Shown: positions 4,029 to 49,526 of the stretch, in pieces | Numbering within the stretch: position 1 is the first letter of the stretch | Layout of the letters: every line of letters begins with the position of its first letter | Source: Candidatus Accumulibacter appositus | Lineage (GTDB): Bacteria; Pseudomonadota; Gammaproteobacteria; Burkholderiales; Rhodocyclaceae | Assembly: GCA_000585055.1 (NCBI GenBank) | Contig: JEMX01000044.1 | Coordinates: 1-64,000 of the forward strand | DNA length: 64,000 bases | Reading direction: 5' to 3' | The notes under the pieces: generated by a model | What the model was told of the DNA's origin: nothing | The model's database searches: none | Seen by the model: the letters and a program-made list of their open reading frames with translations, nothing else | Made by a program: the position numbers and the translations under genes

Positions 4029-4279
4029 GACGTTCCCCCAAGTTCTCACAATGAAAGGTCGAGCACCCCGATGGTCAAGGAACGAGAAACGACTGTCAGG
4101 GCGCGGCTAGCTGAATGCTGTTTCTGGAACCCGGTTTGCGGGCGCGCAACTCCGGGTAGCTTGCGACGGTGAACGCGGGCCTCTGCCTGCCCTCCGTTTC
4201 TGGTCGACTGCATCTGAGCTCCCCACTAGGCTGAAATGGCGTTGGTGACGCCGGCCAGTTTGGGCAGTGGTCCGTTTTT

Positions 4280-7795: not shown

Positions 7796-7885
7796 ACTGG
7801 CCGATACGGGGCGTTGAGCCAGGTACCCCGACCCAGAATGTTCGCCTTGCCCGCAGCATGCGCGAATGCTATCTTCGTCGTACGG

Positions 7886-7897
7886 TTATTCGGCGTT
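7886..7897 (+). repeat. 12-mer TTATTCGGCGTT, copy 2
   Basis: An exact copy of 7049-7060, located about 50 bp upstream of the STAND regulator ATG, in the intergenic region it shares with the broken peptidase gene. The position is suitable for an operator or promoter element, but function is unproven. Confidence 0.35.
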
Positions 7898-7945
7898 CTT
7901 GCCTCAGGTCACCGATGCGGACGCAGCGACAGGAGCGCGAATCGC

Positions 7946-11569: not shown

Positions 11570-14500
11570 ATGGGTCGCCGTCCTCCTGTCTTCGATGTCA
11601 CTTCTTCGCGAGCCTCATTTGCCCTATCCAGGCTCACCAGCGCCCTACGAAGTGCGCTCAAGCTACCCTGGCCGTTTGCTGACAAGCCAGAACGAGCAGC
11701 TATCGCAGCAGCAGCGGCCCGCAAGATCTTCTTCGAGAGCCTCGAACAGCGATTGCTGCTGTCGGGTGATGTGCTCCCGGCGGCGTCAACGCTGCTTCAG
11801 GAAAACGAGCCAGAGAACAACTCCCTGCTGACCGCGACGGTCATGCCGCTCACCGAGGATCCGCTCGGCAGCGGCCTGGCGATTGGCCGTGCGGAGGGTC
11901 AGCAACAGCCGGCGATCAGCGGCGACTATTGGTCGGACCCGGACTGGTGGCGGCTGCAACTGCAGCAGGGCGACGTCATTTCCGTGAGTGTCGATACGCC
12001 GACGAGTGACATGGACCCGTATCTATGGCTCGGCGATGGCAGCGGCAGCGGGATCACCTCGGACGACAACGGCGGTCCGGGAACGGATGCGGCGATCAGC
12101 CACTACACGGTCACCGCGACCGGTGTCTATTACGTTCAGGTGGGCCGAAACGGGAACAGCGCCACGCCGGGCGCCTATGAATTGCATGTCGAGCGTGCGC
12201 GTGGCATCGAACTGGAGTCCGACCTCGGCTACAGCAACGACAGCGTCGGCGGCGCGAATACGCTCACATTGGCGGGGAGCGGTGGTCATCGCACGGCGAC
12301 GGTGGCCGGCACGATCATGGCGGTCGAAGGCAGCAACACCGACGAAGATTTTTACAACCTCGGCTTGTTCAACGCCGGCAACCTTGTCGAGTTGAGCACG
12401 CGCCTGCCAAGCGACAGTACACTGCTCCCGAAAGTGACGCTGCTCGACGCCGCGGGCCAAGTCCTTGCCGACGAAGACGGCGACGCCACCGACGGCCACG
12501 CCAAGGTCACGCTTGCCTCGGACGGCGTGATCTACGCCCGCGTCGAAGCCATCAGCGGGTCCGGTTCGCGCGGCCAATACCTGCTCGACGTAGACATCAG
12601 CGACCCCGTCCGCCCACGAATAACCGGTGTCACGGGTCTCCCGGCGTTGGCGACCGAGATCACGCTGGACCCTGGCGCGCTACCGAGTACGCAGGGTTGG
12701 CGCTATTACAGCAATGGCTATGCCGAGTCGAGTATCTTCTCGACCGACGGCAGCACGCTGAGCCAGAACACCATGGGCAGCGGCGGCCATTACGCCCACT
12801 ACCAGCAGGACCACATCGTCGACGCCAGCCGGCCCTTCGAACTGAGCCTGCGCGCGCGGTTACTGCAGGAAGAGCGTGCCAGCGGCACGGACCACAACGG
12901 ATTCGCATTTGCCGTTTTTACCGGCATTCACCACGTCAACCTGTCCTTCAGCCCGACCGGGGTACAGCTCAGCGGCACCACCAACACCACGGTGGCGCTC
13001 GATACGAGCGTCTTCCACGACTACGCGCTGTCGGGCGACCCGTCCGGAAGCTACAGCCTGGCGGTTGACGGTGTCGTGGCTGCGCGCGGCGAGCTCTCCA
13101 AATCGTCGGGGGCGAGCTACGTTTGGTTCGGCGATGCGACCGGCGGCCCGAACGCCCAGGCCGAACTGACGCAATTGATATTCAAGCAACCGGAAGCGCA
13201 TGACCTGGTCGGTCCGACGCTCGGCGTGAGCTTCAGCGAAGCACTCGATGCGGCGACGGTGCAGGGGACGCCGGGCGTATGGCAGTACGGCGGACACACC
13301 TACACCCTGACCCCACGTTCGATGAGCTGGACCGAAGCCGAAGCCGAGGCCCAGCGACTGGGTGGGCACCTGGTGACGATCAACGACGAAGCCGAGCAGG
13401 CGTGGGTGAGCGAGACCTTCGGCGGCTGGGGCGGGTGGTACTTCTGGCTGGGCATGAACCGCAGCGACAACAGCATGCAATGGGCGAGTGGTGAGCCCGT
13501 GAGCTACACCAACTGGGGAGGAGGCGAGCCCAGTGGTTACAACTACGGTTACCTGACCTGGGATGGACGCTGGTACAACACCCACAGTACCGGACTGGGT
13601 AGCGGCGGCTGGGGTGTGATCGAGATCGACGATGCAGGCGCCGACGGTGACGCCGACGGCTTGCCGGACCTTCTCGATCCGTATCCCACGAACGCTGCCA
13701 ACGCCTTCGAACTGCGCGAAGCCGGGCCGGATGCCAGTTTCGATACCGCCGACGACGTTCTCTACACGCTGCGCCAGACCGCGTTCAGCGGCATCGGCGT
13801 GTCCTTGCGCATCAACGAAGGCACGCTGGGTGCGGGCAGCTACCGTTTCAGTGCCACGTCGACGATCAAGGATCCCGCCGGTAATGTGCTCGATGGGAAC
13901 GGCGACGGCAGCGGCGGTGATGCGTATCAGCGCTTCTTCACCATCGATCAGCCGCCTGGCTACCAGATTGAGCACAGCGGATTCGGTCCGCAGGCACCGC
14001 TGCTCGAACTCACTGACGACCCGGTGGGTAGTGGGCTGGCGATCGGACGGGCGCTGGGACGTCTCGACCCGGCCTACAACAGCGACTACAGCGATATGGA
14101 CGCCTGGCGCATCGAGCTGGCACAGGGTGATCGGGTATCGATCAGCGTCGACAGTCCGGCGAGCACCCTTTACCCGTCAATGTGGCTCTACGATCCGGCA
14201 GGGAGCAATGTCGCTTCCGACAGTGGCGGTCCCGGCTATGGGCAGGGTTACGGCCCGGATTACGATACCTTCATCAGCGACTACCAGGTACAAACCGGCG
14301 GCACGTACCTGCTACTGGTGGCGAAAAACTATCACGGCGGCGAAACCCGTGGCGCTTACGAGTTGCACGTCGAGCGTGCGCGTGGCATCGAACTGGAGTC
14401 CGACCTCGGCTACAGCAATGACAGCGTTGGCGGCGCGAACGTATTGACCCTGGCCGTCTCAGGCACGCACCGCACGGCGACGGTCGCCGGCACGATCATG

Positions 14501-17500
14501 GCAGCCACCGACAGCAACACCGACGAGGACTTCTACAACCTCGGCCAGATCAAGGCCGGTGAAACCGTTTTCCTCAGCACCCGCATCCTGTCCAGCAGTT
14601 CCTTGCGACCCGCTCTGGAACTCCGAAATTCGCACAACGTCGTGGTGGCGATCAGCACCAACGTGGTTGGTGCGGCGGCGCGTTTCGACGTCATTGCTGA
14701 CGACACCTACTACGTCGTCGTCAAGGGAATTTCGGGCCAGGGGTCGCGCGGCCAGTATCTCCTCGATGTCTCCGTCTGGCCCACTGGGGAGGTGTCATAC
14801 GCCGATCTGATGGTGCCTTCCGTCACCCTCCCGGCGGACGCTTCCAGCGGTGAAACGATTCGTGTCGGCTGGACGGTGGAAAATCTCGGGACCGGGATCA
14901 CTGACCGGGCAAACTGGGCCGATCGCGTCGTCTTGTCCGCGAACGAACAGTATGGCGATGCGGACGACGTGGTGCTGGCAACGGTTCTGCACAGCGGAGA
15001 GCTGGCTGTCGGCGAGTCCTACACCGTCGAGGCAGACGTGCAGTTGCCGCGTGGCAAGGCGGGTTCCTATTGGCTGTTCGTGCAGGCGGACAGCAGTCTC
15101 GGTGTTTTCGAGCACATCTTCGACGGCAACAACGTCGGCCAGAGCGCCACGCAAATCGCCATTGCTAGGACCCTGGCGGCCGACCTGCGGGTTGCTGACC
15201 TGCAGGCAAGCGCAATGGCCATCTCCGGGCGCTCTCTGGACGTCACTTGGACCGTCGAGAATGCCGGTGATGGCACGACCGGTGACGGCTTCCCGGCTGG
15301 CGTCGTTTCCGAGTGGACCGATCGCCTCGTCCTGAGTCGCAACCTTTTGCGCGGCGATGGCGACGATACCGTGCTTGGGACGTTTACGCATATTGGCGAA
15401 CTGGCGGCGGGTGGGTCCTATAACCGATCGGAGGCGGTGCTGCTACCGGCTGGGATCGAAGGCGACTTTTTCCTCTACCTGCAGACTGACATCCCGGACA
15501 AGGTTTACGAAGAGAATTGGGAGGCGAACAACGCTTCCGCATTCCGTCCGCTGCGAATCGACCTTCCGCGTCCCGATCTGCTCGTCAGTGCCGTCGACGT
15601 CCCGGCTTCGGCGCTCAACGGTGCCGATATCCTGGTCTCGTGGAACGTCGAAAACCAGGGAACGCTGGCGACCGGCGCTGCCAATTGGACAGATCGAGTC
15701 ATTCTGTCCACGGACGCGGTCCTGGATGGCGCCGACGTCGTGCTCAAGTCTCTCGCACATGCGGGGGCGCTCGCGGTGGGCGAAGGCTACGCCGCGCAAA
15801 CCACGGTGACCATTCCGACCGGCTACAGCATGTCCGAGGGCGAGTATTTTCTGTTTGTCGAGACGGAAGCGGGCAAGGTCATCACCGAGGCGATCGAAAG
15901 CAACAACGCGACCTCATCGGCGATTCAGCTCGCCTTCCCAGCGCATGTCAGCTTCTGGGATGGCGGCGGGGATGGAGTTTCGTGGAGCGATCCGAACAAC
16001 TGGACCCGCAACACGCTGCCCGGCGCGGACGACACGGTGACGATCGACGCACCAGGGGATCTCACCGTGGTGCACCAGGCGGGCGATGACACGCTGCGTC
16101 GCTTGATCCTGGACGACAAGCTTCTGCTTTCCGGCGGCAGCCTGGCGACTGTCGAGGACTTGACTGTGAACTCGACGCTGACGCTGGCCGGCGATCCGAA
16201 CAACACGGTGTTGCGCGGCTTGGTCTCCGGCTCCGGTGCCGTCTTCGTCTCCGAAGGTCGCGGCGCGACCCTGGACGGAGTGACGCTGGATGGCGTCCCG
16301 CTGACGGATCGAGGCCAGCTACGGGTGATCAATGGCCTGGCCCTGCAGGGATCGACCATCACCCTGCTCGGCGATACGCCGGGTGCGGATCGTTCGCTGG
16401 AGTTTGTTGGGGCTCAGACCCTGGGCGGTAGCGGGGAAGTGATCTTCAGTGGCAATGCCAGCCGCAATCTGGTGTTGGCGACTGATGGCACGCTGACGCT
16501 TGCTTCGGGAATAACCGTTCATGGCGGCTCGGGCATCGTCGGGCAAGATCCCGGCGCTGTCGGCGCGGATGCCGAACTGCTGGTGGAAGGCCGGATCGTC
16601 GCCGACTCCGGCGGCCAGGAGATCTTCGTTAACGCCACCTCGGTACTTAATCACGGCACGCTTGGCGCTTCAAACGGCGGCAATCTGCGCCTGACGGGGC
16701 TGGCACCGAACGAGGGGTTGCTCGATGCCGGCGCTGGGGGCACGATCCACATTGACGGCGATCTGACCAACGCCTCGTTGGGGACGCTGCGGGTCTCGGT
16801 CACTGGTGACCAGCCGCAGCAGTATGGGCGAATCGATGTGGGTGGCACGGTGCACCAGGGTGGCACCCTCCACGTAGCACTTTCGGGAGCCGCCGTTCCC
16901 GACGTTGCGCTGAGACGGGGGCTGCTCACCTACCACGCTCGCGATGGCCAGTTCGCGGACATTCGCGGGCTGGATGTTGCGTATGGCAATAACGCGACGG
17001 TGCAGAACGGCGCCAGCCTGGCGCTGGGTAAGGTAGGGCAGGCGTTCAGCTTCGATGGAACCGACGATCATCTGAGCATACCGGATAGCGTTGCCTGGAA
17101 CTTTGGCAGTGACGACTTCACAATCGAGCTGTGGACGAAGCTTGATACTGTCAAGCGCAGCATGTTCATCCACCAGCGGCAAGGTTCCGGACCGGGTGGA
17201 TTCGAGTTCTACTACGAACCCGGTTCCGTCAACGGGTGGCTACGTTTTAACCGGGACAGTGGGCACAATGTCATCGATCGAGCTTGGCAAGCGGAACCGA
17301 ATCGCTGGTATCACCTTGCCGTAACGCGGACGACTGGTACCTACCGACTGTTCGTCGATGGTGTCCAGTTGGGCGGCGAGGAAATTGACGCGAATCCGGT
17401 CCGGGATGTGACGGGGCCGCTGAGCATCGGTCAGTATCCCAACAATTATTCAGTCGATGGCTTGCTTGACGAGGTCAGCATCTATCGCCGCGCGCTCTCC

Positions 17501-20500
17501 GGCAGAGAAATCCGTGCCATCTTCGACGCCGGCAGCGCCGGCAAAGGCACCACCCCAGCGTCGCCGCCACCCTCCGGACTGGTCGGCTGGTGGAGCGCAG
17601 ACTGGGGACCGAACGACTTCGTGTCCGCCTTTAAGTTCGCCACCGAAGTCACCGACACCGGCATCAATCTGGTCACCAAGGAGCGCGAGCTTCCCGACCT
17701 GCAGACGGTCTCCGTCAGCGCGCCGAGCGCGGCGCAGAGTGGCGACTACATCGTTGTCTACTGGGACGTGCACAATCCCGGGCTCGATACCGGCAACGTC
17801 TCGTGGATGGACCGGGTCATCCTCTCCGAAGACGCGGTGCTCGACGCGGGCGACATCGAACTTGGCCGGGTGCTTCACGAGGAAGGCTTGCCCAAGGGTG
17901 AAAGCTATCGGGAGGCCGGCGTCTACACGGTGCCGATTGACTCCGCCGGGGACTTCACCATCTTCGTTACGGCGGACAGCGACTTCGCCGTCTTCGAGGG
18001 GCTCAAGGAAGCCAACAACAGTGGCCGGACCGCACAGCCGATCCACGTGACCTTGCGTCCGGTGCCGAACCTGCAGGTTGCCAGCATCGATGTGCCGGCC
18101 GAGGCGCAACCCGATCAACGCGTGCGCCTGTCATGGAGCGTGGCCAACTCAGGCGCCGGCAACGCGATCGGTCCCTGGATCGACGAGGTGTACCTGTCTG
18201 CCGATGGGTCGCTCAGCGGGGCGACGCTGCTGGCCTCCGTCCGGCGCGATGGCGGCATGATCCCGGACGCCAGCTACACGGCCTTTGCCGACGTCACCTT
18301 GCCGCGTGTCGCGGATGGCGACTACCGGATCGTGGTGTCCACCGATGCCACGAAGAGGGTACACGAGCGCTTCGACGAAGGCGACAACATCACGGTTTCG
18401 GCGTCGACCATCGCCTTCGGGCACGCCGACCTGCAGGTTTCGGCCATCTCGGCGCCTGACGAGCAACAACGGGGTTATCCGGTGCAGGTTCCAGTGACCT
18501 GGACGGTGAGCAACCAGGGTCAGCGCCCGACGATTCCGGGTGCCTGGCAGGACTACGTCTTCCTGTCGCAGAACGCCGTGATCGGCGACGCCGACGACGT
18601 GCAGGTGGGAAGCTTCCTGCACAACGGGACACTGCAGCCCGGCGAGAGCGTCGAGCAGACGCGCAGCGTCTCGCTGCCTTTCGGCGTCAAAGGTCAGTAC
18701 TACCTGTTCGTCACCGCGGACGGCGCAAACCACGTCTTCGAAGCCGATCACGAGAGCAATAACCAATCGCAGCTCGAAGCGGTAGACGTGCTCACCGCGT
18801 ACGCGGACTTCGCCGTCGATGCCGTGGTCGTTCCCGTCGACGGTGGCGCCAGCGGCACGCCGGTACAGTTATCCTGGAAAGTGAGCAACGTCGGGATTCA
18901 CGAGACGCTCGGCAGCAGTTCGTGGTCGGACGCCATCTACCTGTCGGCCGATGACGCTCTCGACGGCACCGACACCTTGCTGGCGACGGTCCCGCGTGGC
19001 GGCGTCGTGCCGGTGGGCGCCACCTATACCGGACGGGCCTCGCCGGTCCTTCCGAACGGCATCGAGGGACCCTTCCACATCATCGTCGTGGCCGATACTG
19101 GCAGTGCGGTCTACGAGGATGGTCGGCGCGGCAACAACCAGGGGAGCCAGTCTATCGAGGTGCTGCCCAAGCCGGCGCCAGACCTGCGCGTCGAGCCGAC
19201 TATCGTCGTTCCTCCCGAAGGTCAGCCCGACCGCAGCGTCGCCATTTCCTGGACAGTGAGCAACAACGGGCTCGGCAACGCCGAGGGTTCCTGGGTGGAC
19301 AGCGTCTATCTTTCCCCCGACGGCACGCTCACCGGTGCGACGCTCCTCGGCGAGTTGCGGCACGACGGTGGGCTTGCCGTCGGCGCAAGCTACAGCCAGA
19401 CGGCAAACCTGATGCTGCCGCGTGTTGGCGATGGCAACTACCGCATCGTGATCAAGACCGACGCGGCCGATGTCATCTTTGAAGGCAAGCTGGGCAGCGA
19501 AGCGGAGAACAACAACGTCACGGTCGCGGCGTCCTCCGTCGAGATGGGCCACCCCGACCTCCGGGTTCCCCAGGTGACGGTGCCTGGGGGGCTGATTGAG
19601 GGCTTCCCGGTGCGGCTGCCGATCAGTTGGACGGTGACCAATGACGGGCCGCGTCCTTCACTTGCAGCGACCTGGAACGACCAGGTCGTTCTCTCGCGCA
19701 ACGCGGTGCTCGGCGATGGCGACGATCAGGTGGTCGGGAGTTTCACGCGCTTTGGATCGCTGCAGGCCGGCGAGAGTTACACGCGCGGCGAAACGCTCAC
19801 CCTGCCGATCGGGGTGTCGGGAGATTACCGCCTTTTCGTGCGTACCGACGCGCAGGGGCAGGTCTACGAGGGTGGCGCCGATGACGGAAACAACGCTTCC
19901 GTAGCCGCTGCTGTCTCGCTGCTCACACCTTATGCCGATCTGGTTGTCGATTCGGTGAGTGCGCCGAGCGACGCGCTTGGGCGCGACACCATCCAGGTTT
20001 CGTGGACCGTCCGTAACCAGGGTCAGGACGCAACGCACGCGCAGGTCTGGAGCGAGCGGATCGTGCTTTCTGCCGATGCGACGCTTGACGGCAAGGACCT
20101 GGAAATCGGTCGGATCACCCATGTTGGTGACGTCGCTCCCGCTGAGAGTTACAGCGAGTCGGGGGCTTTCACACTGCCGGAGAGGTTGCAGGGCAGCTTC
20201 CACGTGTTCGTCGCTACCGACGCCGCTGGGGCCGTCTACGAGGATGCCTTCGAAGACAACAATCTTGGCGAGGCGAGCACGCTGCTGACCGTGGCGACGC
20301 CGCCAACGCCGAACCTGCGGGTGACCCGTGTCGCCGGTCCAGTCAGTGGCTATTCCGGCGATTTCGCCCGGGTGACCTGGACGGTTACCAACGACGGCGC
20401 AATGCCGGCACGCGGCGGCTGGAGCGACCGTGTCTACCTGTCGGTCAATGGGCTCGTCGAGGGGCCGGTGCTGGCCACTGTCCGCCACGAGAACGCGCTC

Positions 20501-23500
20501 GGCATCAACAACATCTATTCTTCCTATGCTGACATCACGCTGCCCGACCTCGTGGATGACAGCTATCGCTTCGTCGTGGTCACCGATACCGCTGACGAAG
20601 TATTCGAAGGCCTAGCCGGTGAGGGCGATAACGTTCGGGCGTCGGCAGGGACCGTCGGCATCGTGCACCCCGATCTTGTCGTCAGCAAGCTCGTCGCTCC
20701 GAAACTGGCGACCGCCGGCGACGTGATTACCATCAACTTGACGGCGACGAATGCTGGATCTGCCGCCGCCCGTGGTGGTTGGGTCGATCGCCTGTTCCTG
20801 TCGACAGACGGGACTCTTGATGGCGCTGATCGGCTGCTCGCAACGCTGCCGCGCAGCGGGCCGCTGGCAAGTGGTGCCAGCTATTCCGCACAGAGCGCGT
20901 TGACACTGCCTGCCGACCTCTTCGGACCCGCCGAGTACTACCTGATCGTCGTTTCGGATGCCGATGGCGCGGTGAAGGAGTACCAGGCCGAAAGCAACAA
21001 CCAGCGCAGCACGAGGATCATCGTGATGATGGCGCCGTTCGCCGATCTGATGACTTCGGAGGTCCGCGTCAACACCGAACTGGCGATCGGTGACCCGGCC
21101 CCGATTACCGTGACGTGGACGGTAAGCAATGTCGGGATTGACCCCGGCGCGACCGATCAGTGGGTGGACCAGATCCTGGTTGGCGATCAGGTCGTCGCCA
21201 GCTTCGTGCACCAAGGTGCGCTTGAGGTCGGACAAAGCTATACGCGCAGCGAGAGCATCCTCCTGCCGGCGGCGATGCAGGGTCGGTTCGCGATTTCGGT
21301 GCGCACCGATGGGCTCGGGCAGGTGTTCGAGAACGCCGCCGAGGCCAACAACCGGGCCAGTGCGGAGCACACGGTCGACGTGATGCCCATCGGCTACGCC
21401 GACCTGCAGGTAACAGCGATGCAGGCGGCAGACGGCTTCAGCGGCAGGCCGATCCAGGTCAGCTGGACGGTCGCCAACCTGGGCATCAGCAGCACCTCGT
21501 CTGCGGACTGGAACGACCGGCTGGTGCTGGCGCGCAATCCTGATGGGAGCGACATCATCCGTGACTACGGCTCCTTCGGTCATCTCGGGGTGCTCGCCAG
21601 GGACGGCAGCTATACGCGCTACGCCGAGATCACGCTTCCTGAGGGCTTGAGCGGAACGTTCTACGCCGTCGTGCATAGTGCTGCTGGTGGTGTCGTTCCA
21701 TTCGAGTTCCTGTACTCGAACAACAACCAGGGATCGGCAGCGACGCAGGTGCGTCTCTCACCGTCGCCTGACCTGCAGGTCGTGGACATCCAGGCGACAG
21801 CTGCGGCAAGCGACGGAGGCCTGATTGACGTCAGCTGGACCGTCGAAAACCAGGGGCAGGGCGCTGCCGCCGGAACCTGGAGCGATCTCCTGGTGTTGCG
21901 GCCGGTCGGCAACCCGGCGGCGTCGGCAATCACCCTGGGCTACTTCAATTATTCGGCGCCGCTGGCAGCCGGAAAGCATTACAGGCGTACCGAGCAGTTC
22001 CGCTTGCCGGAACGTATCACGGGTACCTACCAGGTGGTGGTGTCGACCAACCACAGCCGTTCGCTCTATGAACATGGCGTGCTCGCCGACAACAACGTGA
22101 GCACCGACGAGTCGCCGGTCACCGTCAGCCTGCGGTCGCGTCCGGACCTGCAAGTGGCCGTTCTCGACGTTGCCGAGCGCGTCACGGCTGGCGGCACGCT
22201 GGCTGCCCGCTTCGAAGTCGTTAACCAGGGCATCGCGGCGACCTCGGTCCCGAATTGGCAGGACCGCGTTTACCTCTCGCTCGACAACCGTCCGAGCGGC
22301 GACGACATCCTGATCGGCTCCTTCCAGAATGGTGCCGCGCTCGCCCCCGGCGAGCGCTACGCGACCGAAACGGGCAGTGTCGTGATCCCCGTGCGCTACC
22401 GCGGCGATGTGTACGTCATCGCCGTAGCCGACTCGTCAGACACGGTCGATGAGTACCCGAACAACGGCAACAACGTCCGGGTTCAGTCGGTTTACGTCGA
22501 GCCCAGAGCCTTTGGCGACCTGGTCACCAGCAACGTCGTCGCGCCGAATCGGGCGCAGCAGGGTTCGCAGCTCGAAGTTCGCTACACCGTGACCAACCGA
22601 GGCTCGGCGTCCACCTATGTCAGCGAGTGGCACGACACGGTCTGGCTGAGCCGCGACAAGCGGCGGCCGAGCGCCGCCAATGGCGCCATCCTGCTCGGCA
22701 GCTTCGCCCATAGCGGCGTCTTGGCGGTTGGCGAAGGCTACGACAACTCGGTCAGGGTCAACCTGCCGTCGAACCTGCCGAGCGGCATCAATACCTACTA
22801 CCTCACCGTCTGGAGCGACGCCTACGATGTCGTCATCGAGGACACGCTCTCATCGAACACCAATCCCGACGATCCCAATGAGATCGACAACAACAACTAC
22901 AAGGCGCGCGCGCTGCAGGTGATCGCCGAACCGCCACCGATTCCCGAGCCGGTCCTCGTGCCGGATCTCAGCGTTACCTCGATCGTTGCGGATGCTTTTG
23001 GCACGGGCGGCGAACGCTTCAGCGTCAGCTGGACCGTCCAGAACGGTGGCGGCGGGACTGCAGCGGGAGGCTGGAGGGACGATGTCTACCTGTCGAAGGT
23101 ACCCAGTCTGTCGCTCAACGACCCGACACGCGTCTACCTCGGCTCTGTCGCGCGTGCCGACGCCTTGCTGCCGGGTAGCAGCTATACGGTGAATCACAGC
23201 TTCCAGCTGCAGCCGCCGGCCGAGGGGACCTACGTCATCGTCGTGACCGACGCCAGCCGTGCGCGCGGTGTCAACGGGGACGTCGTTGAAACAGCGGAGG
23301 ACAACAACGAGTTCTCGGCCACCACGTTGGTAGTGCCGCGTGTTCCGGCGGACCTCGTAGTGAGCTCGGTGCTTGTTCCGCGCCAAAACTTCTCGGGTGA
23401 GGCGAGCACGGTCCAGTGGACGGTCACCAACGTCGGCGCCGAAGTGTGGTCCGGCACCAGCTACTGGATTGACCAGGTCTGGCTCTCACCGGACCCGGTT

Positions 23501-35500: not shown

Positions 35501-38500
35501 GAGATTCTTGCCGATCCCACGACAGTGACGATCGTCGCCGGTGGACTTAGCAGTCTGGAGGTGGAGGCGCCTGGAGGCGTGATCCTTGGCCTTGCCGACA
35601 TCCTGGTGCGGCGTACGAAAAGCACGAACTTGGTGAGCCCATCCGGGACCGTAACGACAAGGGTCGAATCGGTCGAAAGCAACTCAGTTCGAGTAACTCC
35701 GACCGGCGGCCTCGTGTTCGTTGGTGTTCATCCGAACAAGATTGTCCTGCTCGACGGCAGCAATACGGAAACCGTCGCGACGGTGGAATTGCCTGGAGCG
35801 GCCCTGTCCTCGACCGCACCGCTGGCGGCCACGCCGGACCAGACGAGGTTGTACGTGGGATTGCGTACCGGTGGCATCGCAGTGGTCGATGTCGTTGGTC
35901 AACGTGAAGGCGACGCAGACCTCGATACCCCCGGCCTGGATCGCATCAGCAAGACCGAAGGAGGGCTCGATGACCTGCCGGGTATCCACGGACTGGTGTG
36001 TGATCCGTCGGGAGGCTTCCTGTACGCGATAGGCAACGGGAAGGTAGCCAGCAACGTCATCCATGTCATAGACATCCGGCCTTACTCGAAGGACTTCCAC
36101 AAGGTCGTCTCCCACATTTCGGTACCGGTCGCGGACGCGCTGATGGGACTCGCCGGAATGGACATCAGTGCGGACGGTCGCCGCCTGTATGCGGCGGCCC
36201 CGCGCACGACCCTGACCGACGGTCCGGACGGACGGAGTTGGTACGACGGAGGACGGGAGAACGGCAGGATCATCGTTATCAACGTGGACGGCAATGACGA
36301 ACCACTCGACAGGTCCGCCGACAATCCGCGGCGGTGGCGGGAAGTAATCGCCGTGCTGGAAGCGGGCTACAACCCGCATCTCGTGGTCGCAAGCAGTGAC
36401 CCGCACAAGATCGCGTTCAGCAATTTCCTCGACATGAATCACGGCTTCGCCACCCTGCAAGTGACCAAAGACGATCCCAACGACTTCCGCGCGGCCATTC
36501 GTTCGGTGAGTCTCAACCTCCCCGTCGATCTGAAGTTCAACCTGGATATTCAGAACGCCCGCGGTATAGCGATCACGCCGGACCTCAAGTACGCGTTTGT
36601 TTCGGACTGGTTCGTCTTCGATTTCCCGCAGCGGCGGCTTTTCCGGGCGACTGATCCTCAGGATTATGCAATTCTTGAGGGCCGTGGCGCGAAGATCGGG
36701 GTGATCGAGGATCCCTTTGCGCTAGACGCAAGGCTGGTGGGCAGTACGACCCCGGTGTTGAGTGGGTTTGCCGATCGGATGGCATTGTCGCCGGATGGGA
36801 AGCTTCTCTATGCAGACTTCAGAGGCTCGGGGGGGCTGCTTAGCCCACGGGAGGTAAAAGTTCTTGATGTGTCCGAAATTCGACGCATGCTCGAGACAGG
36901 GACACCGCTGGAAATCGCAACCAAGCGCCATGAGATGCAGAAGCGGCCGATTGAGGAGGTCCATCCGGCGGTACAGGTTGAGCCCCTAAATGTCGGAGGT
37001 ATGCCCGTAAACGCTGAAGGGCAAGAGGAGGCAGTAAAGGTTTCGGTTATCGGGAAGTACGGCGATGTATTGTCCATTGACTTTCGCGATCTGCTTGCAA
37101 GTAAGGAGTTTACAGTAAGCAGCCCAGTAAATAAAACCGAGCACGTTTTCGAGTACCTCGGCATGTTCGGGGCGCATCTACAGCAGCAACCTGTGGATCT
37201 CAAGAGCCTGCGCGATCGCACCGACCAGCACTTCGCGAGCCCCGTGGGCAAGGTGCCGTATGTCGTCCTAGATGATTTCAGCAGGTCTCCTTTACAGGAA
37301 GCGGACGAACAGACGACACTGGCCGCTGAACGTTTCGAACAAACAGGAGTTCTCTATTTTGTGCCAAAGCTTGACGACGAATTAATTCTTCGGGGAGGCC
37401 TCCATCGCGGCGCTACGGTAACTGTACGTATATCGGTCAAGACGACCACAAGATTCCTCGGGCTCCCGATCGACCGATGGCGGTCAGTAGACGTGGCAAT
37501 TAATATTCAAGACGAACAGCGGTTGCAGAAAGATGAGCAATCATTATATAGCGATATCCATCTGACAGGAGACGTCGGAAATACTACCGTGCCAGGTTCT
37601 AATCGCCCACTCGATGTTTTCAGGGTTCAGCAGCGCTTGGCTTATCTTGGCTTCCGCGGTTTCACGCTGGATAAAAGCACAATCTGTGAGGCGCAGGCGG
37701 AAGCGCGAATTGCTGCGATTGATCCAGACGGATTTTCGCCGAACAGCGTGGATGCCGCCAGGTCTGAATACGATTATGCGATAGGCGCCGTAGTAAAGCA
37801 TAGTAAGCTCGGTGCGGCGATCAAGACCTTCCAAGGGGCCCTCTTCACCGGACGTATCCCACTCGGTGTTCAGCCAATTAGATTCATAGATAATGATGGG
37901 AACGAGAAGGGTCCAAGGCTTCCAATGGAAGGTAATGTAGACTTGGTGGGCGGGATTATTAGGGCGGCTGGAGAAGACAAGACGCTCGCGGCCTTAAGCG
38001 CTACTAACGCTCCGCGATGGCAGGACGGAACGCAATTATCACTCAAGGGAGGCAGATGGAAACTAGACGATCCAACCGAGGCTTTTGCGACATCTTGGGC
38101 CTTGCGCGTGATCGAAGAGGCTCTGAGTAGCGACGATCCGGGTGGTTCTCTAGATGCACTAATTTCGGATGAAGGGTTAAGCTGGAATGGAAAGGAAGGG
38201 GTTCAGGCTATCAACGGGTTGAGTGAGCCAGGCGGCTTTACTCGAGGGCATAGTTCCCACCATACCGGCACCGAGATCGATATTGATATTCAAAACAGTC
38301 AACAAGATAATACCGGAGTCTACTTTGCCGCAGAGTTGTTTACGGACAAAGTGGGGGGCGTTAAGGCCATGGGCGCTGGAACGGGTGCAGACGCTGTTCA
38401 TGTTACATACACCGAAAGAGGTAGCTGGCATACCCTCGAACAGAACAACCTGATGACTACCGATGAGAAGGGGAAAACATTAAAAACTACGGAGTATCAG

Positions 38501-41500
38501 AAGCGATTTTCGGAGACGTTGCGTGGTGCTGCGGGACACGACGCTGATAACGTCGCAGAATTTGCGTTTGAAGGGCTGGGCGCTGGTGAATGGGAGGTAT
38601 GGGCAACTTGGGGAAGTGTCGGATTTGGGGGTGCCACTGGAAATTTTGAGTTGCTCGGGGGTAATGACCTCAGTTCGCCGCGGCAGACCGAATCCTTTAC
38701 TTTCGAGAAAAGCTCTGAGAAGCATGCTGATGCGCATGATTTTCTGGTGGGCGGAAAGAGAACAGATAACGCACATGCCGTTTGGGTCAAGATCGGCGAT
38801 GTCGCACTGACGAAGGAGGATATGGGTAAATTGTTTGTGCGTCTTTCCGGATTGGCTGGAAAAGGCGATGGGATCTTGATTATGGATGCAATTATGATTC
38901 GGCCGCGGTTGCTGCATCCGGATGCCTCTTATAGTGACAAGCTGGGTGAGCAGAATCACTTGAAGAGGCTCAATTGGTATATCGAAGACGACGATGATCC
39001 AAGCAATGGCCTGCGGAAGTCTGGCCTAACAGATGAAGAGGCGGTAATTGTCCGGGACGCTTACCTGTTTTGGCGTGCCGCTGTCAATGAAGCAGGTTGG
39101 AAGAACATGTTTGTCGGGGGAAGAACATATTCGGGGGGGGTGCGTGAACCCACTCTTGAGCGAGTTCGAGAGGTGTTGGACTACATCGGTGACGGAGATA
39201 ACGACCGCTTGGGTGAAAACATCGCAGGAGATAAGTATGTCGTCAATAATCAGTACTTAGACAGGACTCGGAGTGACACTATTAAAGCGAGGCCTGTGCC
39301 GTCGCATTGGAATCATTTCCACGTGAACATTCAGCCTCCCACGGGGCTTGGCCTGAATGCGGCGGCGCTCTCGGAACATGGCCCAGATTATGTGTCAAAT
39401 GATTTCAGATTGGTGGGTTATGAGGCAGTAAAGGCGCTTACGCTTCAAGTAGCGGAGTTTTGGGGCGTTCAGAATTATGGCGAGGTTGACTGGATAGCTG
39501 GGCAAGTTGAGGACTTGCCGTTGTCCGGCCTTGCTTCTGTTCAACTGGATAGCGCAAAAATCGTCTTGGACGTCGATGGTGCGGGTTACGGTTGGTTTGT
39601 CGATCGTACGCCGCTCGATAATGAGGAGTTTGTCTGGAATGCAGAAACGGGTGAGTGGGTGGCGTTAGCTGGAGGCGAAGCGGACGGTCGGGTGGATCTG
39701 GTTACGGTGTTGGCGCACGAGATTGGGCATGTGTTGGGGCTGGATCATGCGAGTGTCCTAACCAATCCACGGAGCGTCATGGAGACACCTCTGGCTCCAA
39801 GTGTCCGGCGCCTTCCGACCGAGGCCGATCGAGCTACATTGACAGCCGTGGTTATGGAGTGGGGGGGGCAGGTAATAACACGAGGCACGGCGTTTGAAAT
39901 GAGAGCAAGCCTAAGCGCGGATGATCCGGGTGGTTGCTCTGCAATCCTCAGCGTCGAGTCCGCTGAGTCTCTTCTTGTGTCCGAAGCGACGCGCTTGACG
40001 GGACTAGTTAGCGATAGGTCCCTATCTGCCGTTGTAGCTGGTCTTGGGTCGAGTGTTTCCGGGCCGGGAGTCGACGAGGATGGTGAACCGATCTTGCTTG
40101 ACGAGAGTGCGCAACGAAGCCGGGTGAGCCAACGGTTCATGGTTCGAGACGCACTCTCGCTGCAGTTCACCCTGCACTCGGCCGCTCTGGGCGCGAGCGC
40201 AGACTCCCCTCCAGATGCCTTCGAGGTTGCCCTGCTCGACGCCGGCACGCTGGCGCCAATCGCCGGCACCGCCGGTCTCTCTGGCAGCGACGCTTTGTTC
40301 AACCTTCAGGCCGACGGTCGTCTGGGTGCCGGTAGTCGGGTGCTACTGAATGGTCTGCCACCTGGGGCGTTGTTGCCGGATGGCGCCGTCACCGTCGACA
40401 TCGATCTCAGCGGCATTGCGACCGACAAGCCGATACTCCTGTACTTCGACCTCCTAGGCTTCGGCGCCGCCGACAGCGAGGTGATCATTGATGACGTTCA
40501 TTTCGTGATGTCTGCCGACACCGCACCGGTCGCGGGCAACGACCTGATCTCCGTCGACGAAGACTCCATCGTCCAGTTCGACGTCCGCACCAACGACACC
40601 GACGCCCAGGATGACCCGCTAACAGTCGAGCTACAATCGAGCCCGACCCAAGGCACCCTGACCCCTCAGCCCGACGGCAGCTTCATTTACCAGCCCGCCG
40701 CGAACTTCAACGGCGAAGACAGCTTCACCTACCGCCTGAGCGACGGCAGCCTCCAGTCGAATACGGCGACGGTGCGCCTGGTCGTCCGGCCGGTCAACGA
40801 CGCACCCGTCGCGCTAGCCGACTTCGGCACGCTGGCCGAGGACGGCATGCTCGATCTCGACGTCCTCGCCAACGATAGCGACATTGACGGCAACGCGCTG
40901 AGCATCGCCTCGACCAGCACTCCGGCGCACGGCAAGGTGACGGTGCTGGCCGACGGGCGGCTGCGCTACACGCCGAATGCCGATTACTTCGGCGCCGAGC
41001 GCTTCACCTATCGCGTCAGCGACGCGCAGGGCGGTGAGGCCAGCGCCGAGGTGGTGCTGACGATCACCCCGGTCGCCGACGCGCCGCGAGCGCTGAACGA
41101 CGTGGTGCAAGTTGACGAGGACGGCAGCGCCCGTTTCGACGTACGCAGCAACGACCTTGACCCCGACGGCGATCCGCTGATTGTCGAACAGCTCAGCACC
41201 CCTGTTAACGGCACGCTGACGCTGCAGAGCGACGGCAGCTTCCTCTATCAGCCGCGGGCAGACTTCTTCGGCGACGATAGCTTCACCTATCGCCTGAGCG
41301 ATGGAACACTGTTGTCTGCCGTGGCAACCGTGACCCTGCAGGTGGCCGCGGTCAATGACGCGCCCAGCGTGACGCTGCAGGAGTTCGTCATCAAGGAGGA
41401 CGAGACGCTCCTCGCCACGATCGTCGCGGCAGACGTCGATGGCGATCCGCTGACGTTCACTCTCGACCAGACCGCCGCGCACGGAACGTTGCAGCTCGGT

Positions 41501-44500
41501 AGCGACGGCAGCTTCCGCTTTACCCCGGTAACGGGCTTTGTCGGCGACGACAGCTTCACGTTCAAGGTCGGTGACGGCCAGGACGTGACGGCTGGTCGTG
41601 CCGAGATTCGCGTCAGTGGCGTCAACCACGCGCCGCTGGCCGCAGATGACAGCATCCAGGTCGATGAGAACAGCACCACCCGCTTCGACGTGCTGGCCAA
41701 CGACAGCGACCCCGACAACGATCCGCTGACGGTCGAACTGCTGTCTACTCCGGCGCACGGCGAGCTCACCCTGCAGGCGGACGGCAGCTTCGAGTATCGG
41801 CCCGAGGCCAACTACAACGGTCCGGACAGCTTTGGCTACCGCCTCAGCGACGGGCAGCTGCTATCCGCCGAGGCGACGGTGCGGCTCGACGTGCAGGCCG
41901 TGAACTATGCGCCGATCGTGGTCAACGACAGCGCTACGCTGGCTGAGGACAGCACGCTGGAAATCGACGTTCTCGCCAACGACAGCGACCCCGACGGCGA
42001 TACCCTGACGCTGGTGGCCGTCGGAACGCCGCAGAACGGTCGTGCTCAGGCGCTTGCCGACGGACGTGTCCGCTACACGCCGCGCGCCGACTACTTCGGC
42101 AGCGACAGTTTCACCTACACCGTCGCCGACCCCTCGGGCGTCCGCGCGGTGGGCACCGTCACGGTGCAGGTGACGCCGGTGCTGGACGCGCCGACGACCA
42201 GCACGCAGCGCTTCACGTCGCTGGAGGATGTGACTCTCTCCGAGCGCCTGACGGTGACCAACCCCGATGGCGCCGCACTGAGCTTCAGCATCGTCCAGGC
42301 GCCGGCGCACGGGCAACTGACGCTCGCTAACGATGGCGTCTTCGAGTACCTGCCGAGCCCCGGTTTCGGCGGCGCCGACAGTTTCAGCTTTGCGGTCGGC
42401 AATGCCGCCGGTGAGGCGGTCGGTTTGGCCGAGTTGAGCATCACGCCGGTGAATGATGCGCCGGTGGCGCAGGGTGATCGCGTCGAGCTCGACGAGGATG
42501 GCTCGGTGACGACCAATGTCGGTGACAACGACTCCGACGAGGAAGGCGATCCGATCAGCTTCGAACTGGTCTCGGGCGTCGCGCACGGCGACTTGGTCTT
42601 TGCGGCGGACGGGTCGTTCTCTTACCGTCCGGTCGCGAACTTCAACGGTGAGGATGTCTTTGCCTATGTGGCCAGCGACGGCCGACTCAAGTCGGTACGG
42701 GCGCTGGTGCATCTGCTGGTGCGGCCGCTCAATGATCCGCCGCAGGCTTTCGACGACACGCGCACAATCAACAAGAACGAGACCATCGACATCGACGTTC
42801 TCGCCAACGATCAGGATATCGACGGTGACAGCCTGGCGGTGGTCACCCCGGGAACGCCGGAACACGGGACGGTCGAGATACTCGCCGACGGACGCCTGCG
42901 CTATGTGCCGGTTAGCGGTTACGTCGGCCAGGACAGCTTCAGCTACGTGATGGCCGATTCCTCGGGCGTGCAGGCGAAGGCCGAGGTGCGCGTCGAGATC
43001 CTGCCGATCAACACTGCGCCGCGCCTTGAGTTGCAGACCTTCCAGGTCGAGGAGAACAGCAGTCTGGCGACGCGCTTCGTTGCCAACGACGCCGAGGGCG
43101 ATGCGCTCGGCTTCACCCTCCTGCAGGGGCCGGGCCATGGCTCGGTCATGCTCGACTTCGACGGGCGTTTCCTCTATGTGCCGAATCCGTTCTACTCCGG
43201 CAGCGACAGCTTCACGGTCGCGGTGAGTGACGGCCTGCTGAGCAGTGACGGCCGTGTGGATATCGCCGTCTTGGCGGTCAACGACCCGCCGCAGGCGGTG
43301 GACGATACGGCCGAACTGGCCGAGGACGGCTCCGTGCTGATCGACGTGCGTGCCAACGACCGCGACCCCGACGGCGATCCGCTGACGATCACCGCGGTTT
43401 CGCTTCCCGGACACGGCACGGCGACGATCGACAGCGGCCGCATCCGCTACACGCCGGAGGCCAATTTCTTCGGCGCCGACGGCTTCACCTACACGATCAG
43501 CGATGGCCAGGAAACCGCGACGGCTGCGGTGGCTGTAAGAGTCAACTCGGTGAACGACCGGCCGACCGCGAACGCGGACGGCGCCGAAGTCGATGAGGAC
43601 AGCTCGGTGCTGATCGACGTGCTCGCCAACGACAGCGATATCGAAGGCGATCCGCTGCGCTTGGTCTCTGTCTCGACGCCGGCGCACGGCACGGCGCTCA
43701 TCGACAACGGTCGCGTGCGCTACACCCCGGCGGCCAACTTCTTCGGCGGCGACAGCTTCACCTACACGGTCAGTGACAACAAGGACAGCAGCACGGCGAC
43801 GGTGACGATCGACGTGTTGCCGGTCGATGACCAGCCGGTGGCTCACGACGATTCGTCGACGACCGAGGAAGATCAGTCGGTGCTGATTGCCGTGCTCGCC
43901 AACGATAGCGATCTCGACGCGGTCGGTCTGACGATCGACTCGCTTACCGGCGCTGCTCACGGTACCGTGGCCATTGAAGGCGCCGCCGTGCGTTACCTGC
44001 CGGAGGCCGACTACCACGGCGCCGACAGCTTCAACTACACCCTGCGCGACGGCAAGGGCCGAACCGCCACCGCCTCTGTATCGGTCACGATCACCCCCGT
44101 CAACGACGCCCCGATTATTCTTCCGCAACAGTTCAACACCCGGGAAGGCCAGCCGCTGTCTGCTCAGCTTGTTGCCACCGACGTCGACAGCGACCAACTC
44201 AGCTTCGCCATCGATCAGTCACCGGGCCACGGCCAACTGACGCTCACGACCGACGGCCGCTTCGACTACCAGCCCGAAGCTAACTTCTCCGGCAGCGACC
44301 GCTTCCTCTTCACCGTCAGCGATGGCCTCACGACCGTGCCGGCGCAGGTCGACATCACCGTCGCAGCCGTCAACGCCGCCCCGCAGGCGCAAGACGATAT
44401 CGTCCAGCTCATCCAGGGCGGCAGCGCAAGTTTCGATGTGCGGCAAAACGACAGCGACCCCGATGGCGACCCCCTGACCGTCGTCGTGCTGACGAATCCG

Positions 44501-47500
44501 GCCAACGGCCAGTTGCTGGCGCAAGCCGACGGCAGCTTCAGCTACACGCCGGCGGCAGACTTCAGCGGCGAAGACAGCTTCACCTACCGCGTCAGCGACG
44601 GCCTGCTGCAATCTGAACCGGCGACCGTTCGCCTGGTCGTTGCCGCAGTCAACCATTCTCCGGTGGCAGTCGCGGATTCCGTTGACACCAACGAAGACAC
44701 GCCGGTCACGGTCGATGTGCTCGGCAACGACAGGGACCCCGACAACGATCCGCTATCGATCCTCTCCATCACCACCCCGCGGCACGGCAATGCCGTCCTC
44801 AACCCGAACGGCAGCATCAGCTACAGCCCGTTCGCCGACTTCTTCGGTGCCGACAGCTTCGAGTACTCACTCAGCGATGGTCGCGGCGGCCAGGATGTCG
44901 GCAGCGTCAGCATCACCATCACCCCGGTCAACGACCCGCCGCAGGCCCTCGACGATTTCGCCGAAGTCGCCGAAGACAGCTTTGTCCTCATTCAGGTGCG
45001 TAGCAACGACGACGACCCCGATGGCGACGCGCTAGACCTGACGGCCGTCTCCTCGCCTGAGCACGGCAGTGCCGTTATCGAAAGCGGCGCCATCCGCTAC
45101 ACCCCCGTGGCCAACTTCTTCGGCCGCGACAGCTTCACCTACACCGTCAGCGACAACCAGTACAGCAGCACCGCCACCGTAACGATCGACGTTCTACCCG
45201 TCGATGACCCACCGCTTGCCCGGGACGATCAGGTGACCACCGACGAAGACCAGCCAACACTGATCGACGTGCTCGCCAACGACAGCGACGTCGATGGCGT
45301 CGGCCTACAGATCGATTCGGTCAGCGCAGCCGCGCACGGCACGGTAGCCATCGAAGGCGCTTCGTTACGCTACGCCCCGGCAGAGAACTACCACGGCGCC
45401 GACGGCTTTAGCTACACCCTGCGCGACGGCAAAGGCCGTACCGCTACCGCTTTCGTGTCCGTCTCCATCACGCCCGTCGACGACGCCCCGATCGTCCTCC
45501 CGCAGCAGTTCAACACGCAGGAAGACGAGCCGCTTTCCGCGCAGCTCGTCGCCACCGACGTCGATGGCGACCAACTCAGCTTCGCCATCGACCAGCCACC
45601 GAGCCACGGCCAACTGACGCTCACTGTCGACGGCCGCTTCGACTACCAGCCCGACGCCAACTTCTCCGGCAGCGACAGCTTCCTCTACACCGTCAGCGAC
45701 GGCGTGACGACCGTACCGGCTCAGGTCGAGATCACCATCGCAGCGGTCAACGATGCGCCACAGGCGCACGACGATAATCTGCAGGTCGCAGCGGGCAGCT
45801 CCGTCAGCTTCGACGTGCGCAGCAACGACAGCGACGCCGATGGCGACGCCCTCAGCGTCGAACTGCTGTCCTCGCCCGCGCATGGCGACCTGCTCACGCA
45901 GCCCGACGGCAGCTTCCTCTACACGCCGAGCTCCGGCTTCAGCGGAGAAGACGGCTTCACCTACCGCGCCAGCGACGGCCAGCTGCAATCGGCTCCCGCA
46001 CAGGTCCGGCTGCTCGTTTTCGAAACCCGCCATCCGCCGGTGGCCGTTGCCGATTCCGTCGACACCGACGAAGACACCCCGGTCACCATCGCCGTCCTGA
46101 GCAACGACACCGACGCCGACCAGGACCCGCTATCGGTCATCGCCGTGAGCACGCCGCAGCACGGCAGCGCCGTGCTGAACACCGACGGCCGCATCACCTA
46201 CACGCCGGCCGCCGACTACTTCGGCGCGGATCACTTCGAGTATACGGTCAGCGACGGCAACGGGGGTCAGGACGTCGGCAGCGTCAGCATCACCATTAAC
46301 CCCGTGAACGACGTCCCGACGCTCGCCGAGATCGCCGATCAGCGGCTCGACGAAGGCCAGAGCCTGTCCATCCAGCTCGCCGCGGCAGACATCGACGGCG
46401 ACGATCTCAGCTATAACGTAATCGGCGCCGGTGGCGTGCTCGACGCCAGCGGCCTGTTCAGCTTCACCGCCCTCGACGGCGACGCCAGCCATTCCTTCAC
46501 GGTCCAGGTCTCGGACGGGCAAGGTGTCGCCGAGCGCCGCTTCACCGTCGGCGTCGCCAACGTCGCCCCGACCCTGAGCGTCACCGGCGCCGCCACAGCC
46601 CCCGAGGACTTGCCCTACATCATCGACCTCGCCGCCAGCGATCCCGGCCAGGACACCATCACCAGCTGGTTCGTGAACTGGGGTGATGGCGAGACGGAGA
46701 GCTTGCCCGGTACCGCCACCCAGGCCAGCCATCACTATTCACGCGCCGGCGGTCGCTTCACCATCGAAGCCTCGGCCAGCGACGAAGACGGCCGCTACGC
46801 CGCCGCACCGCTCTCTGTCACCGTCAGCCCCGACCTGCTGAGCGTCGAAAGCTTCACCTCTACCGCCAGCGGCTTCAAGGTCCGCTTCGACCACGCTTTC
46901 GACACCCGCAGCATCGACCTCAACCGCGCCGACGATGGTGTCCCCGACGTACAACTGATCGGCGATCTCGTCGGCCCGGTCAGTGGCTCGCTGCTCTTCG
47001 ACGCCGCTGGACACGGCTTCAGCTTCATCCGCAGTGGCGGCATCCTGCCCTTCGACCGCTACAGCGTCCAACTCGCCAGCGGCTCCTTGGCCTTCCACGA
47101 CGAGTTCAGCGCCCTCGACGGCAACGGCGACGGCACGCCGGGTGACGACTACCTGACCCGCTTCGACATCCTTTCCACCGGTGCCGGCATCCTCAGCCTG
47201 CCCGACTTCATGCGCGGGCCCGGCCAGGCGGTCGATGTGCCCGCCACCGGCCAGCTGCTGCCGGTCACCTTCAGTAACGGCGGTGGCATGCGCAGCCTGG
47301 TATTCACCGTCGACTACGACCCCAATCTGCTCGAGATCAGCGGCGCCCGGGCCGCATCAGGCCTGCCGGCAGGCAGCGAAGTCCGCTTCGAGAGCGCCGC
47401 ACGCGACAACGGTGGTCAGCGCGCCCGCATCACCGTCATCTTGCCAAGTCCGACCACGCTCGGTTCCGGCAGCACACGCCTGGTGGACCTGCTTGCCAGG

Positions 47501-48965: not shown

Positions 48966-49526
48966 ATGAAGATCGGTGCTTCTGCGCGTGCACTAGCGAT
49001 GTGCGCTTTCGTCCTGGCGGCGATTCCGGCTGGCGCCGCGCCGTTTTCAATAATCAGTACACCGACGAGCGGTCAGCGTGGCCAGCCGATCACCATCTCC
49101 TTGTTCGACAGCGCCGTGAGCAACCTGGAAGCGGCAGATTTCTGGCTCACCTTCGACTCCGCTGTTTTCAGCGATTTCAGCGCTTCGCCAGGCTCCGCGA
49201 CGAGCGGTTTCTCTCTGGCTGCGGGAAATCCGGTGTCGGCTGGCGGTAGCCTGTTGCAGGTGGACTTGAGTCTGGCAATCAACCTTGGCCTGCCGGTCGA
49301 TGGGGTGGCGGGCACCCTGGTGGACGTCGATTTCCTAATCAAGCCTGATGCGCCACTGGCTGATTCCGAGCTGGTCTTTGAGGCCAAGCCGTTTTCCGAC
49401 TACGCCATTCCCAGAACGGCAGGAAGGGTCAACGTAATGGGAGGATCTGTTCCCGAACCCATTTCGTCGATGCTGGTCGGTATGGCGCTTCTGACCCTCG
49501 GGGTTCTTCGCCGTCGGCGAACGTGA
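48966..49526 (+). CDS. PEP-CTERM protein with cohesin-like domain
   Basis: A 186-residue protein with AAGGAG five bases before the ATG. The N-terminus is a clear signal peptide (ALAMCAFVLAAIPAGAAP). The body (SGQRGQPITISLFDSAVSNL, ADFWLTFDSAVFSDF, TLVDVDFLIKPDAPL) resembles a cohesin-type beta-sandwich. The C-terminus has VPEP, a hydrophobic helix and RRRRT, which is a standard PEP-CTERM tag for exosortase sorting. It follows the giant dockerin/cohesin protein by 271 bp on the same strand. A natural hypothesis is that it docks the giant protein's dockerin modules at the cell surface. The cohesin call rests on pattern only. Confidence 0.85.
   Translation: MKIGASARALAMCAFVLAAIPAGAAPFSIISTPTSGQRGQPITISLFDSAVSNLEAADFWLTFDSAVFSDFSASPGSATSGFSLAAGNPVSAGGSLLQVDLSLAINLGLPVDGVAGTLVDVDFLIKPDAPLADSELVFEAKPFSDYAIPRTAGRVNVMGGSVPEPISSMLVGMALLTLGVLRRRRT

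Follow-up and report, generated by a model that had tools for sequence, protein, structure and literature searches.

An open frame of 12,374 codons encoding a LEPR-XLL protein in 'Candidatus Accumulibacter', and a SecA/HlyD/M50 gene cluster that co-occurs with its family

The gene at 11570-48694 (+) of the window (the whole stretch of DNA analysed, 64,000 nucleotides) encodes a giant protein of the LEPR-XLL family, and LEPR-XLL genes co-occur, and are often linked, with a cluster of genes for a SecA-like protein, HlyD-type adaptors and a PqqD-M50-HlyD protein. Our best reading, to which we assign a probability of roughly 0.6, is that the giant is an exported acidic matrix or adhesion protein, probably moved by this dedicated SecA-type cluster.

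Reading frame and domain organization

The assembly carrying the gene belongs to 'Candidatus Accumulibacter', a wastewater bacterium, and is a draft of 218 contigs (source genome G000; the window lies on its contig C44). The initial annotation described a single stop-free frame of 37 kb, and this proved exact: the frame comprises 12,374 sense codons with no internal stops, is preceded by a ribosome site and encodes a LEPR-XLL element at its N-terminus. A stop-free run of this length has a chance of about 1e-150 in a model of independent bases with the same GC, and GC is lowest at codon position 2 in all 3-kb bins, as in coding DNA. The earliest start codon past the upstream stop of the frame is the ATG at 11453, but a start at 11570 is favoured because the sequence AAAGGAG ends five bases 5' of position 11570. 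Counted from there, the predicted product has about 1.30 MDa, a pI of 4.3 and three cysteines. No ordinary signal peptide was seen on it by eye, and profile scans of residues 8601-12374 gave no match to RTX repeats.

All features of the giant described below lie on the + strand. The LEPR-XLL element (FFESLEQRLLLSG; 11729-11791, residues 54-74) scored 28.9 bits against NF012209 (cut-off 17) and 35.0 bits in a six-frame search. It is followed by a PPC-type block (11834-12619; PF04151, 54.8 bits, and self-comparison), a C-type lectin domain (13319-13534; PF00059, 35.6 bits, cut-off 22.6) and a second copy of the PPC-type block (13994-14809), which in self-comparison is 46-65% identical to the first in tiles of 150 residues. 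A LamG/concanavalin-like domain (17054-17512; PF13385, 98 bits, cut-off 27.6) separates two CARDB arrays, a short one of about 3 repeats found by self-comparison (14747-15919) and a long one of about 19-20 repeats found by profile and self-comparison (17657-24871), both numbers being estimates from repeat spacing; across the whole first segment of the giant, 13 CARDB stretches pass the Pfam search on their own.

After the long array come about 1,450 residues with few domain matches, and then Ig-type repeats (29237-31801), for which Pfam recovered 8 He_PIG and 5 Big_9 stretches in the second segment. Next are a Rhs-like region that alignment shows to be kept across the giant family (32438-33259; RHS_repeat 21.4 bits, under the cut-off of 22), a type I dockerin (33641-33805; PF00404, 25.0 bits, cut-off 22.9), Big_2-type repeats and a second beta-propeller-like region (35657-36769). 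The propellers of the giant are assigned by reading the sequence; a Pfam search at E 0.01 did not match them. Beyond the hydrolase-bearing stretch treated below, a Big_9/cadherin-like array with 22 Big_9 stretches (40520-46537) leads to a PKD-like domain (46559-46801; PF18911, 23.5 bits, under the cut-off of 27) and to the terminal unit. Most kinds of module named in the initial annotation were recovered in this way, the passing profiles being C-type lectin, LamG, CARDB, He_PIG, Big_9, cohesin, dockerin and matrixin, with RHS_repeat just under its cut-off and the propellers lacking a Pfam match.

Gene neighbourhood

A MalT-like/BTAD regulator gene lies upstream of the giant at 7355-11191 (+). 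In G015, a congener assembled as one contig, a homolog of 58% identity stands directly upstream of the orthologous giant and ends about 160 bases before its frame. The LuxR-type neighbour gene had no match in the loci compared; the proposal of dedicated regulators is thus supported for one gene, the MalT/BTAD regulator. The PEP-CTERM genes proposed on either side score at the edge of the models. The small protein encoded at 48966-49526 (+) reaches 15.3 against a PEP-CTERM cut-off of 16, and has homologs near the giants of G015 (50%) and of another congener, G018 (58%); the frame at 4283-5020 reaches 14.2 against the same cut-off, and 15.9 against a MYXO-CTERM cut-off of 15.85. The protein of 48966-49526 also shows a weak similarity to the PepA model, which is associated with flocculation (24.4 bits against a cut-off of 80). 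At the start of the window, a frame for an RTX/Calx-beta/VWD protein (3-4049, -) runs off the contig start and holds a 351-base tandem repeat of 4.1 copies (1764-3194, 90% matches).

Relatives in the genus and order

A query spanning the Rhs-like to matrixin regions matched 21 of 61 genomes, namely 19 of 28 of the genus (source included) and 2 of 33 others. The closest comparison is offered by G015, whose colinear frame of 14,708 codons is mostly 65-85% identical to the window giant in tiles of 200 residues. The ortholog departs from it in having about 1,450 additional residues near the start, in an identity that falls to 25-50% over codons 7,400-9,450 of the window giant, and in a lack of any tile match over codons 8,700-9,200, where LAS-like motifs are nevertheless still present in the counterpart. 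Nine congeners have matching frames of more than 9,000 codons, and LEPR-XLL frames of more than 10,000 codons also occur elsewhere in the order. As judged from sequence, many genomes of the genus carry related giants. The combination of modules is not unique, since congeners have colinear giants and the order has other LEPR-XLL frames of this size.

The initial annotation also raised the worry that the frame might join separate genes artificially. Such an assembly artefact, or a decaying fusion of separate genes, would find some room in a draft of 218 contigs and in the fall of GC3 at codons 8401-9600; an assembly join is nonetheless unlikely because the one-contig congener has a colinear frame in which the order of parts is unchanged and GC3 falls in a similar way, and the matching frames of nine congeners speak against it as well. 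The worry is thus largely met, and we regard this explanation as very improbable.

The source genome contains other long frames: one of 12,094 codons on contig C59 and two, of 7,255 and 6,173 codons, which overlap on C13 and contain a run of unknown bases. On the contig of the giant itself, the region C44, 102596-117261, holds a second LEPR-XLL frame of 3,286 codons; the next open frame overlaps it and continues past the end of the contig. Contig C38 starts within a frame of 2,275 codons, which Big_9 matches 18 times, and also carries a weak (26%) PqqD-M50-HlyD homolog.

The internal hydrolase bay

Between the propeller-like region and the Big_9/cadherin-like array lies a stretch (36770-40369) with GC3 of 0.51-0.59 in 300-codon bins, as against 0.83-0.89 in later bins up to codon 11700; the fall begins near codon 7,200, earlier than the bay itself. 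The stretch contains a peptidoglycan-binding-like region (37547-37969) whose motif (DVFRVQQRLAYLGF) is common to relatives, one of which matches PG_binding_1 at 14.1 bits, under the cut-off of 23. It also contains the core of a matrixin (M10) zinc site, HEIGHVLGLDH (39653-39784; motif at residue 9383), which agrees with HExxHxxGxxH and passes PF00413 (26.2 bits, cut-off 24). The peptidase-like part claimed for the giant is supported by this matrixin match; the hydrolase bay preceding it was absent from the earlier description.

In the window giant the bay holds a LAS-type (M15/M74-like) metallopeptidase region (38207-39349) with both metal motifs, HxxGxxxD (HHTGTEIDID, residue 8897) and HxH (HFHV, residue 9249). 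No family profile exceeded its cut-off over this domain (Peptidase_M74 18.9 versus 25, VanY 13.4 versus 25), it had no PDB match, and its structure model, with pLDDT 29.3, is too low to assign a fold. A phage origin of the domain was considered and dropped, as no phage match was found.

Other giants carry something else at this site. Seven of ten scanned cassettes (L068, L082, L083, L085, L088, L094 and L099) match the phage endolysin family phrog_181, with E values of 4e-49 to 2e-11, and one of the ten (L068) passes the Pfam GH19 cut-off. The L083 cassette aligns with the solved endolysin 4ok7 at 1e-22 over a span that includes the QESGG/HESGG segment, and is up to 42.7% identical to phage sequences among the ten records listed of 1,296. 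The three cassettes lacking a phrog_181 match (window, G015 and L084) carry LAS-like motifs; at the bay site such motifs were read in the window, G015 and G022, the second motif of G015 being HFD where the others have HFH.

GC3 of the bay, taken as the interval between the peptidoglycan-binding-like and matrixin motifs, was below that of the 300-900 codons upstream in all 15 loci compared (0.52-0.78 versus 0.64-0.89). These loci were the 12 with both motifs among 20 examined, together with the window, G015 and contig C13 of the source genome. Giants of another type (L096-L098) showed neither a GC3 dip nor the peptidoglycan-binding motif. The fixed internal bay is, at the level of sequence, a site of swapped putative wall hydrolases, LAS-type or endolysin-like depending on the giant. 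If these are active, a fixed bay with exchanged wall-hydrolase domains would be an unusual enzyme mount inside an adhesin.

The terminal cohesin unit and tail

The C-terminus comprises a cohesin-like sandwich with the conserved motif PDFMRGPGQ (47186-47563), a dockerin-like element that is conserved in the C-terminal alignment (47624-47800; PF00404, 16.5 bits, under the cut-off of 22.9) and a cohesin (47924-48214; PF00963, 54.7 bits, cut-off 24.1). The unit has no PDB relative by sequence. Its structure model is poor overall (mean pLDDT 47), yet the blocks of the first sandwich mostly reach pLDDT 66-88, for the most part close to 80, and their best Foldseek matches are cohesins, so that a cohesin fold is supported for this predicted domain.

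The last 200 residues had no NCBIfam match. Alignment and profile search delimit here a tail motif (D, W.K, PN..L.V; 48473-48685), in which D, W, P, N, L and V occupy invariant columns of an alignment of 11 C-termini. At E<=0.01 the tail profile was found in 9 of 300 genomes of the order; the two without LEPR are marginal (E 0.0065 and 0.0095). The other seven are among 32 LEPR-positive genomes, and the tail is therefore an end piece common to a subset of LEPR proteins, not to all; a role as universal LEPR partner is not supported. LEPR element and tail share one frame on contigs C44 and C59 of the source genome and in G085, G176 (two frames), G041 and G124.

A gene cluster that accompanies LEPR-XLL proteins

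The cluster consists of GAF-HlyD, PqqD-M50-HlyD, SecA-like and HlyD genes. In the source genome it lies outside the window, on contig C59, between the giant of 12,094 codons and the end of another giant frame, which the contig boundary truncates; it is not adjacent there to the giant studied here. In G015 the ortholog, a second giant, a PEP-CTERM-like small gene and the cluster follow one another on one strand, in G016 the cluster is flanked by two giants, and in G018 a giant of 9,505 codons stands between the M50 and SecA-like genes. In this region of G018 (G018:C6:49970-87378), a second stretch resembling part of the M50 protein (41%) stands just before the SecA-like gene. Of 20 neighbourhoods of the order, all 20 contained GAF-HlyD, 18 the SecA-like gene and 11 the second HlyD gene, several of them on the other strand.

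The HExxH and NPxxxxD residues of the M50 protein are invariant in 12 aligned sequences; the protein has no PDB relative by sequence. The SecA-like protein of the source genome (678 residues) keeps TGEGKT, DEAD and GRAGRQG and has the motor domains (SecA_DEAD 320 bits, PP-binding 90.6 bits). It falls below the NCBIfam SecA2 cut-off (best model 548.8 bits versus 1085). Its alignment to SecA stops at about residue 605 and no scaffold/wing domain match was obtained, and for this reason it may not be a usual translocase. No outer-membrane pore was seen among the cluster genes scanned.

LEPR elements were counted at E<=0.001 and strong M50 homologs at E<1e-100, a line set after viewing the gap between 1e-114 and 1e-53; the count of putative exporters does not include the weak class of homologs, with identities of 25-30% and E values between 1e-53 and 1e-25. 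The LEPR, M50 and tail searches are taken to cover the same 300 genomes, on which the genomes listed agree. In these, 28 had both LEPR and strong M50, 4 LEPR alone, 4 M50 alone and 264 neither (Fisher 6e-31 by genome); the corresponding counts by genus, tallied by hand, were 17, 3, 1 and 114 (p 1e-17); genomes within a sample have common ancestry. The LEPR-only genomes (G129, G130, G274 and G285) have E values of 2e-4 to 5e-4, and one scored as having both (G046) has an equally weak LEPR match, 6e-4; the M50-only genomes (G088, G150, G189 and G217) are all drafts of 310-580 contigs. LEPR by itself, present in 32 of the 300 genomes, was rejected as a novelty.

Within the genus, 17 of 28 genomes had both, two LEPR only (G011 and G019), one the exporter only (G006) and eight neither (p 1e-4). 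One of the congeners, G009, assembled as a single contig, lacks both LEPR and exporter matches and offers a natural negative. Linkage points in the same direction: 19 of the 47 M50 places share their contig with a LEPR match, and all 19 pairs agree in strand. In 13 of them LEPR is found downstream of the M50 gene at a distance of up to 15 kb; in the other six the start of LEPR is 21.8-46.6 kb upstream of it, a distance close to the length of one giant.

Outside the order, a Hyphomicrobiales MAG (G338), picked for having the giant core, carries an M50 gene at 44%; LEPR occurs in 2 of 190 genomes of its class, the one clear case being G338, the single genome of that class in which M50 was looked at. 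In Planctomycetota, sampled by way of a Pirellulales record, the exporter profile is matched in 34 of 149 genomes (in two, G545 and G589, by short adaptor-only matches) and LEPR (E<=1e-4) in three. All three have the profile and 31 profile-positive genomes lack LEPR (p 0.011). By pattern, 1 of 20 Planctomycetota neighbourhoods (L191) contained a LEPR-like motif, compared with 5 of 20 from the order; 13 of the 20 Planctomycetota neighbourhoods had a SecA-like gene. Since the Planctomycetota cluster is mostly found without LEPR, the putative exporter probably predates its LEPR cargo and has a wider distribution.

Proposed function and alternative explanations

Based on these observations, we propose that the LEPR element near the start would act as an export tag recognized by the cluster, and that the SecA-like motor, HlyD-type adaptors and PqqD-M50-HlyD membrane protein encoded on C59 would carry the giant through the membranes, the M50 protein possibly cutting it. 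Outside the cell, the sugar-binding and Ig-type arrays may bridge cells and glycans, and the cohesin/dockerin/cohesin unit and tail might hold the giant to partners or to the cell surface. The internal hydrolase bay could work on peptidoglycan, either the cell's own during export or that of neighbours. The matrix-building system suggested in the initial annotation survives in the sense that a large exported matrix or adhesion protein is the best reading, and fails in so far as the combination is not unique. For the family as a whole it seems somewhat better than an even bet that LEPR-XLL giants have a secretion system dedicated to them, which admits them by LEPR as the entry tag and consists of a SecA-type motor in shortened form, HlyD-type adaptors (two or three) and a PqqD-M50 protein; the Accumulibacter cargo would bear exchangeable endolysin-like or LAS-type hydrolases in a fixed bay, and the relatives in Planctomycetota would serve other large cargo.

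The giant might instead be a contact weapon, that is, a long adhesin displaying a swappable peptidoglycan hydrolase to neighbouring cells, with the bay exchanged as in polymorphic toxins. The occurrence at one site of either LAS-like motifs or phage-endolysin-like domains (the latter in 7 of 10 cassettes), the lower GC3 of the bay in 15 of 15 loci and the likeness of the L083 cassette to phage sequences and 4ok7 all agree with this. However, the bay is internal and not at the tip, the LAS domain of the window lacks phage and PDB matches, and the G015 copy deviates at its second motif; we consider a weapon unlikely. A little less likely still, in our opinion, is an ordinary large adhesin secreted by the general Sec or a type I route, the cluster serving other cargo and co-occurring with LEPR through ancestry or lifestyle. 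Clusters devoid of LEPR matches in Planctomycetota and in four exporter-positive genomes of the order, all of them drafts, could be read this way; the association by genus, the agreement in strand of 19 of 19 pairs, and the giants beside or between cluster genes in G015, G016 and G018 argue against it.

With export by the cluster as the preferred reading, a gene set that tracks LEPR giants so closely would give a direct handle on the export of proteins of more than 1 MDa. How Gram-negative bacteria export proteins of this size that have neither RTX nor an ordinary signal peptide is, to our knowledge, an open question. Accumulibacter is important in phosphorus removal and in granular sludge. 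The giants are concrete candidates for its extracellular proteins, which are described as little known (PMC12019908). Speaking against the proposed reading, the main text of that study, on the secretome of an Accumulibacter enrichment, does not mention LEPR, cadherin, VCBS or Ig-like, and it reports that the proteins in its long, negatively charged cluster came mostly from other organisms than Accumulibacter (PMC12019908).

Comparison with known systems

The giant shares cohesin (54.7 bits) and dockerin (25.0 bits) modules with cellulosome scaffoldins, and the variable module seen at its bay with polymorphic toxins. Adhesins of the LapA/BapA/CshA type have similar Ig/cadherin-like arrays, and the BapA/LapF and CshA repeat models match the giant; it differs from them in having no RTX match in residues 8601-12374, in its LEPR start and in belonging to a family linked with the SecA/HlyD/M50 cluster. 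The accessory Sec system (SecA2) exports large surface glycoproteins in Gram-positive bacteria. Both systems combine an additional SecA-like motor with surface proteins that are giant and repetitive, whereas here the host is Gram-negative, the SecA-like protein is shortened after the motor and the neighbours are HlyD and PqqD-M50 proteins. In the literature searched, which excludes most subscription papers and preprints, we recognized no paper linking LEPR-XLL proteins or giants with such a cluster.

Giant1-5 of Apilactobacillus kunkeei, very large extracellular proteins of 3,000-8,000 residues, are likewise, by their published description, encoded by consecutive genes but belong to a lactic acid bacterium (PMC12863079). 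A LEPR-XLL protein of Limnohabitans was met among Lake Baikal transcripts (PMC9611531), and one of Vibrio sp. VB16, with about 8000 residues and likewise an N-terminal LEPR-XLL element, is reported with C-terminal RTX and serralysin domains (PMC10868602), RTX being unmatched in the last third of our giant. With LEPR-XLL proteins as defined by NF012209 (LEPR-8K), the giant shares an N-terminal LEPR element above the cut-off, very large size and repetitiveness; it is set apart by its 12,374 residues, its putative wall-hydrolase bay and its terminal cohesin/dockerin unit, and its C-terminal tail is common to part of the family.
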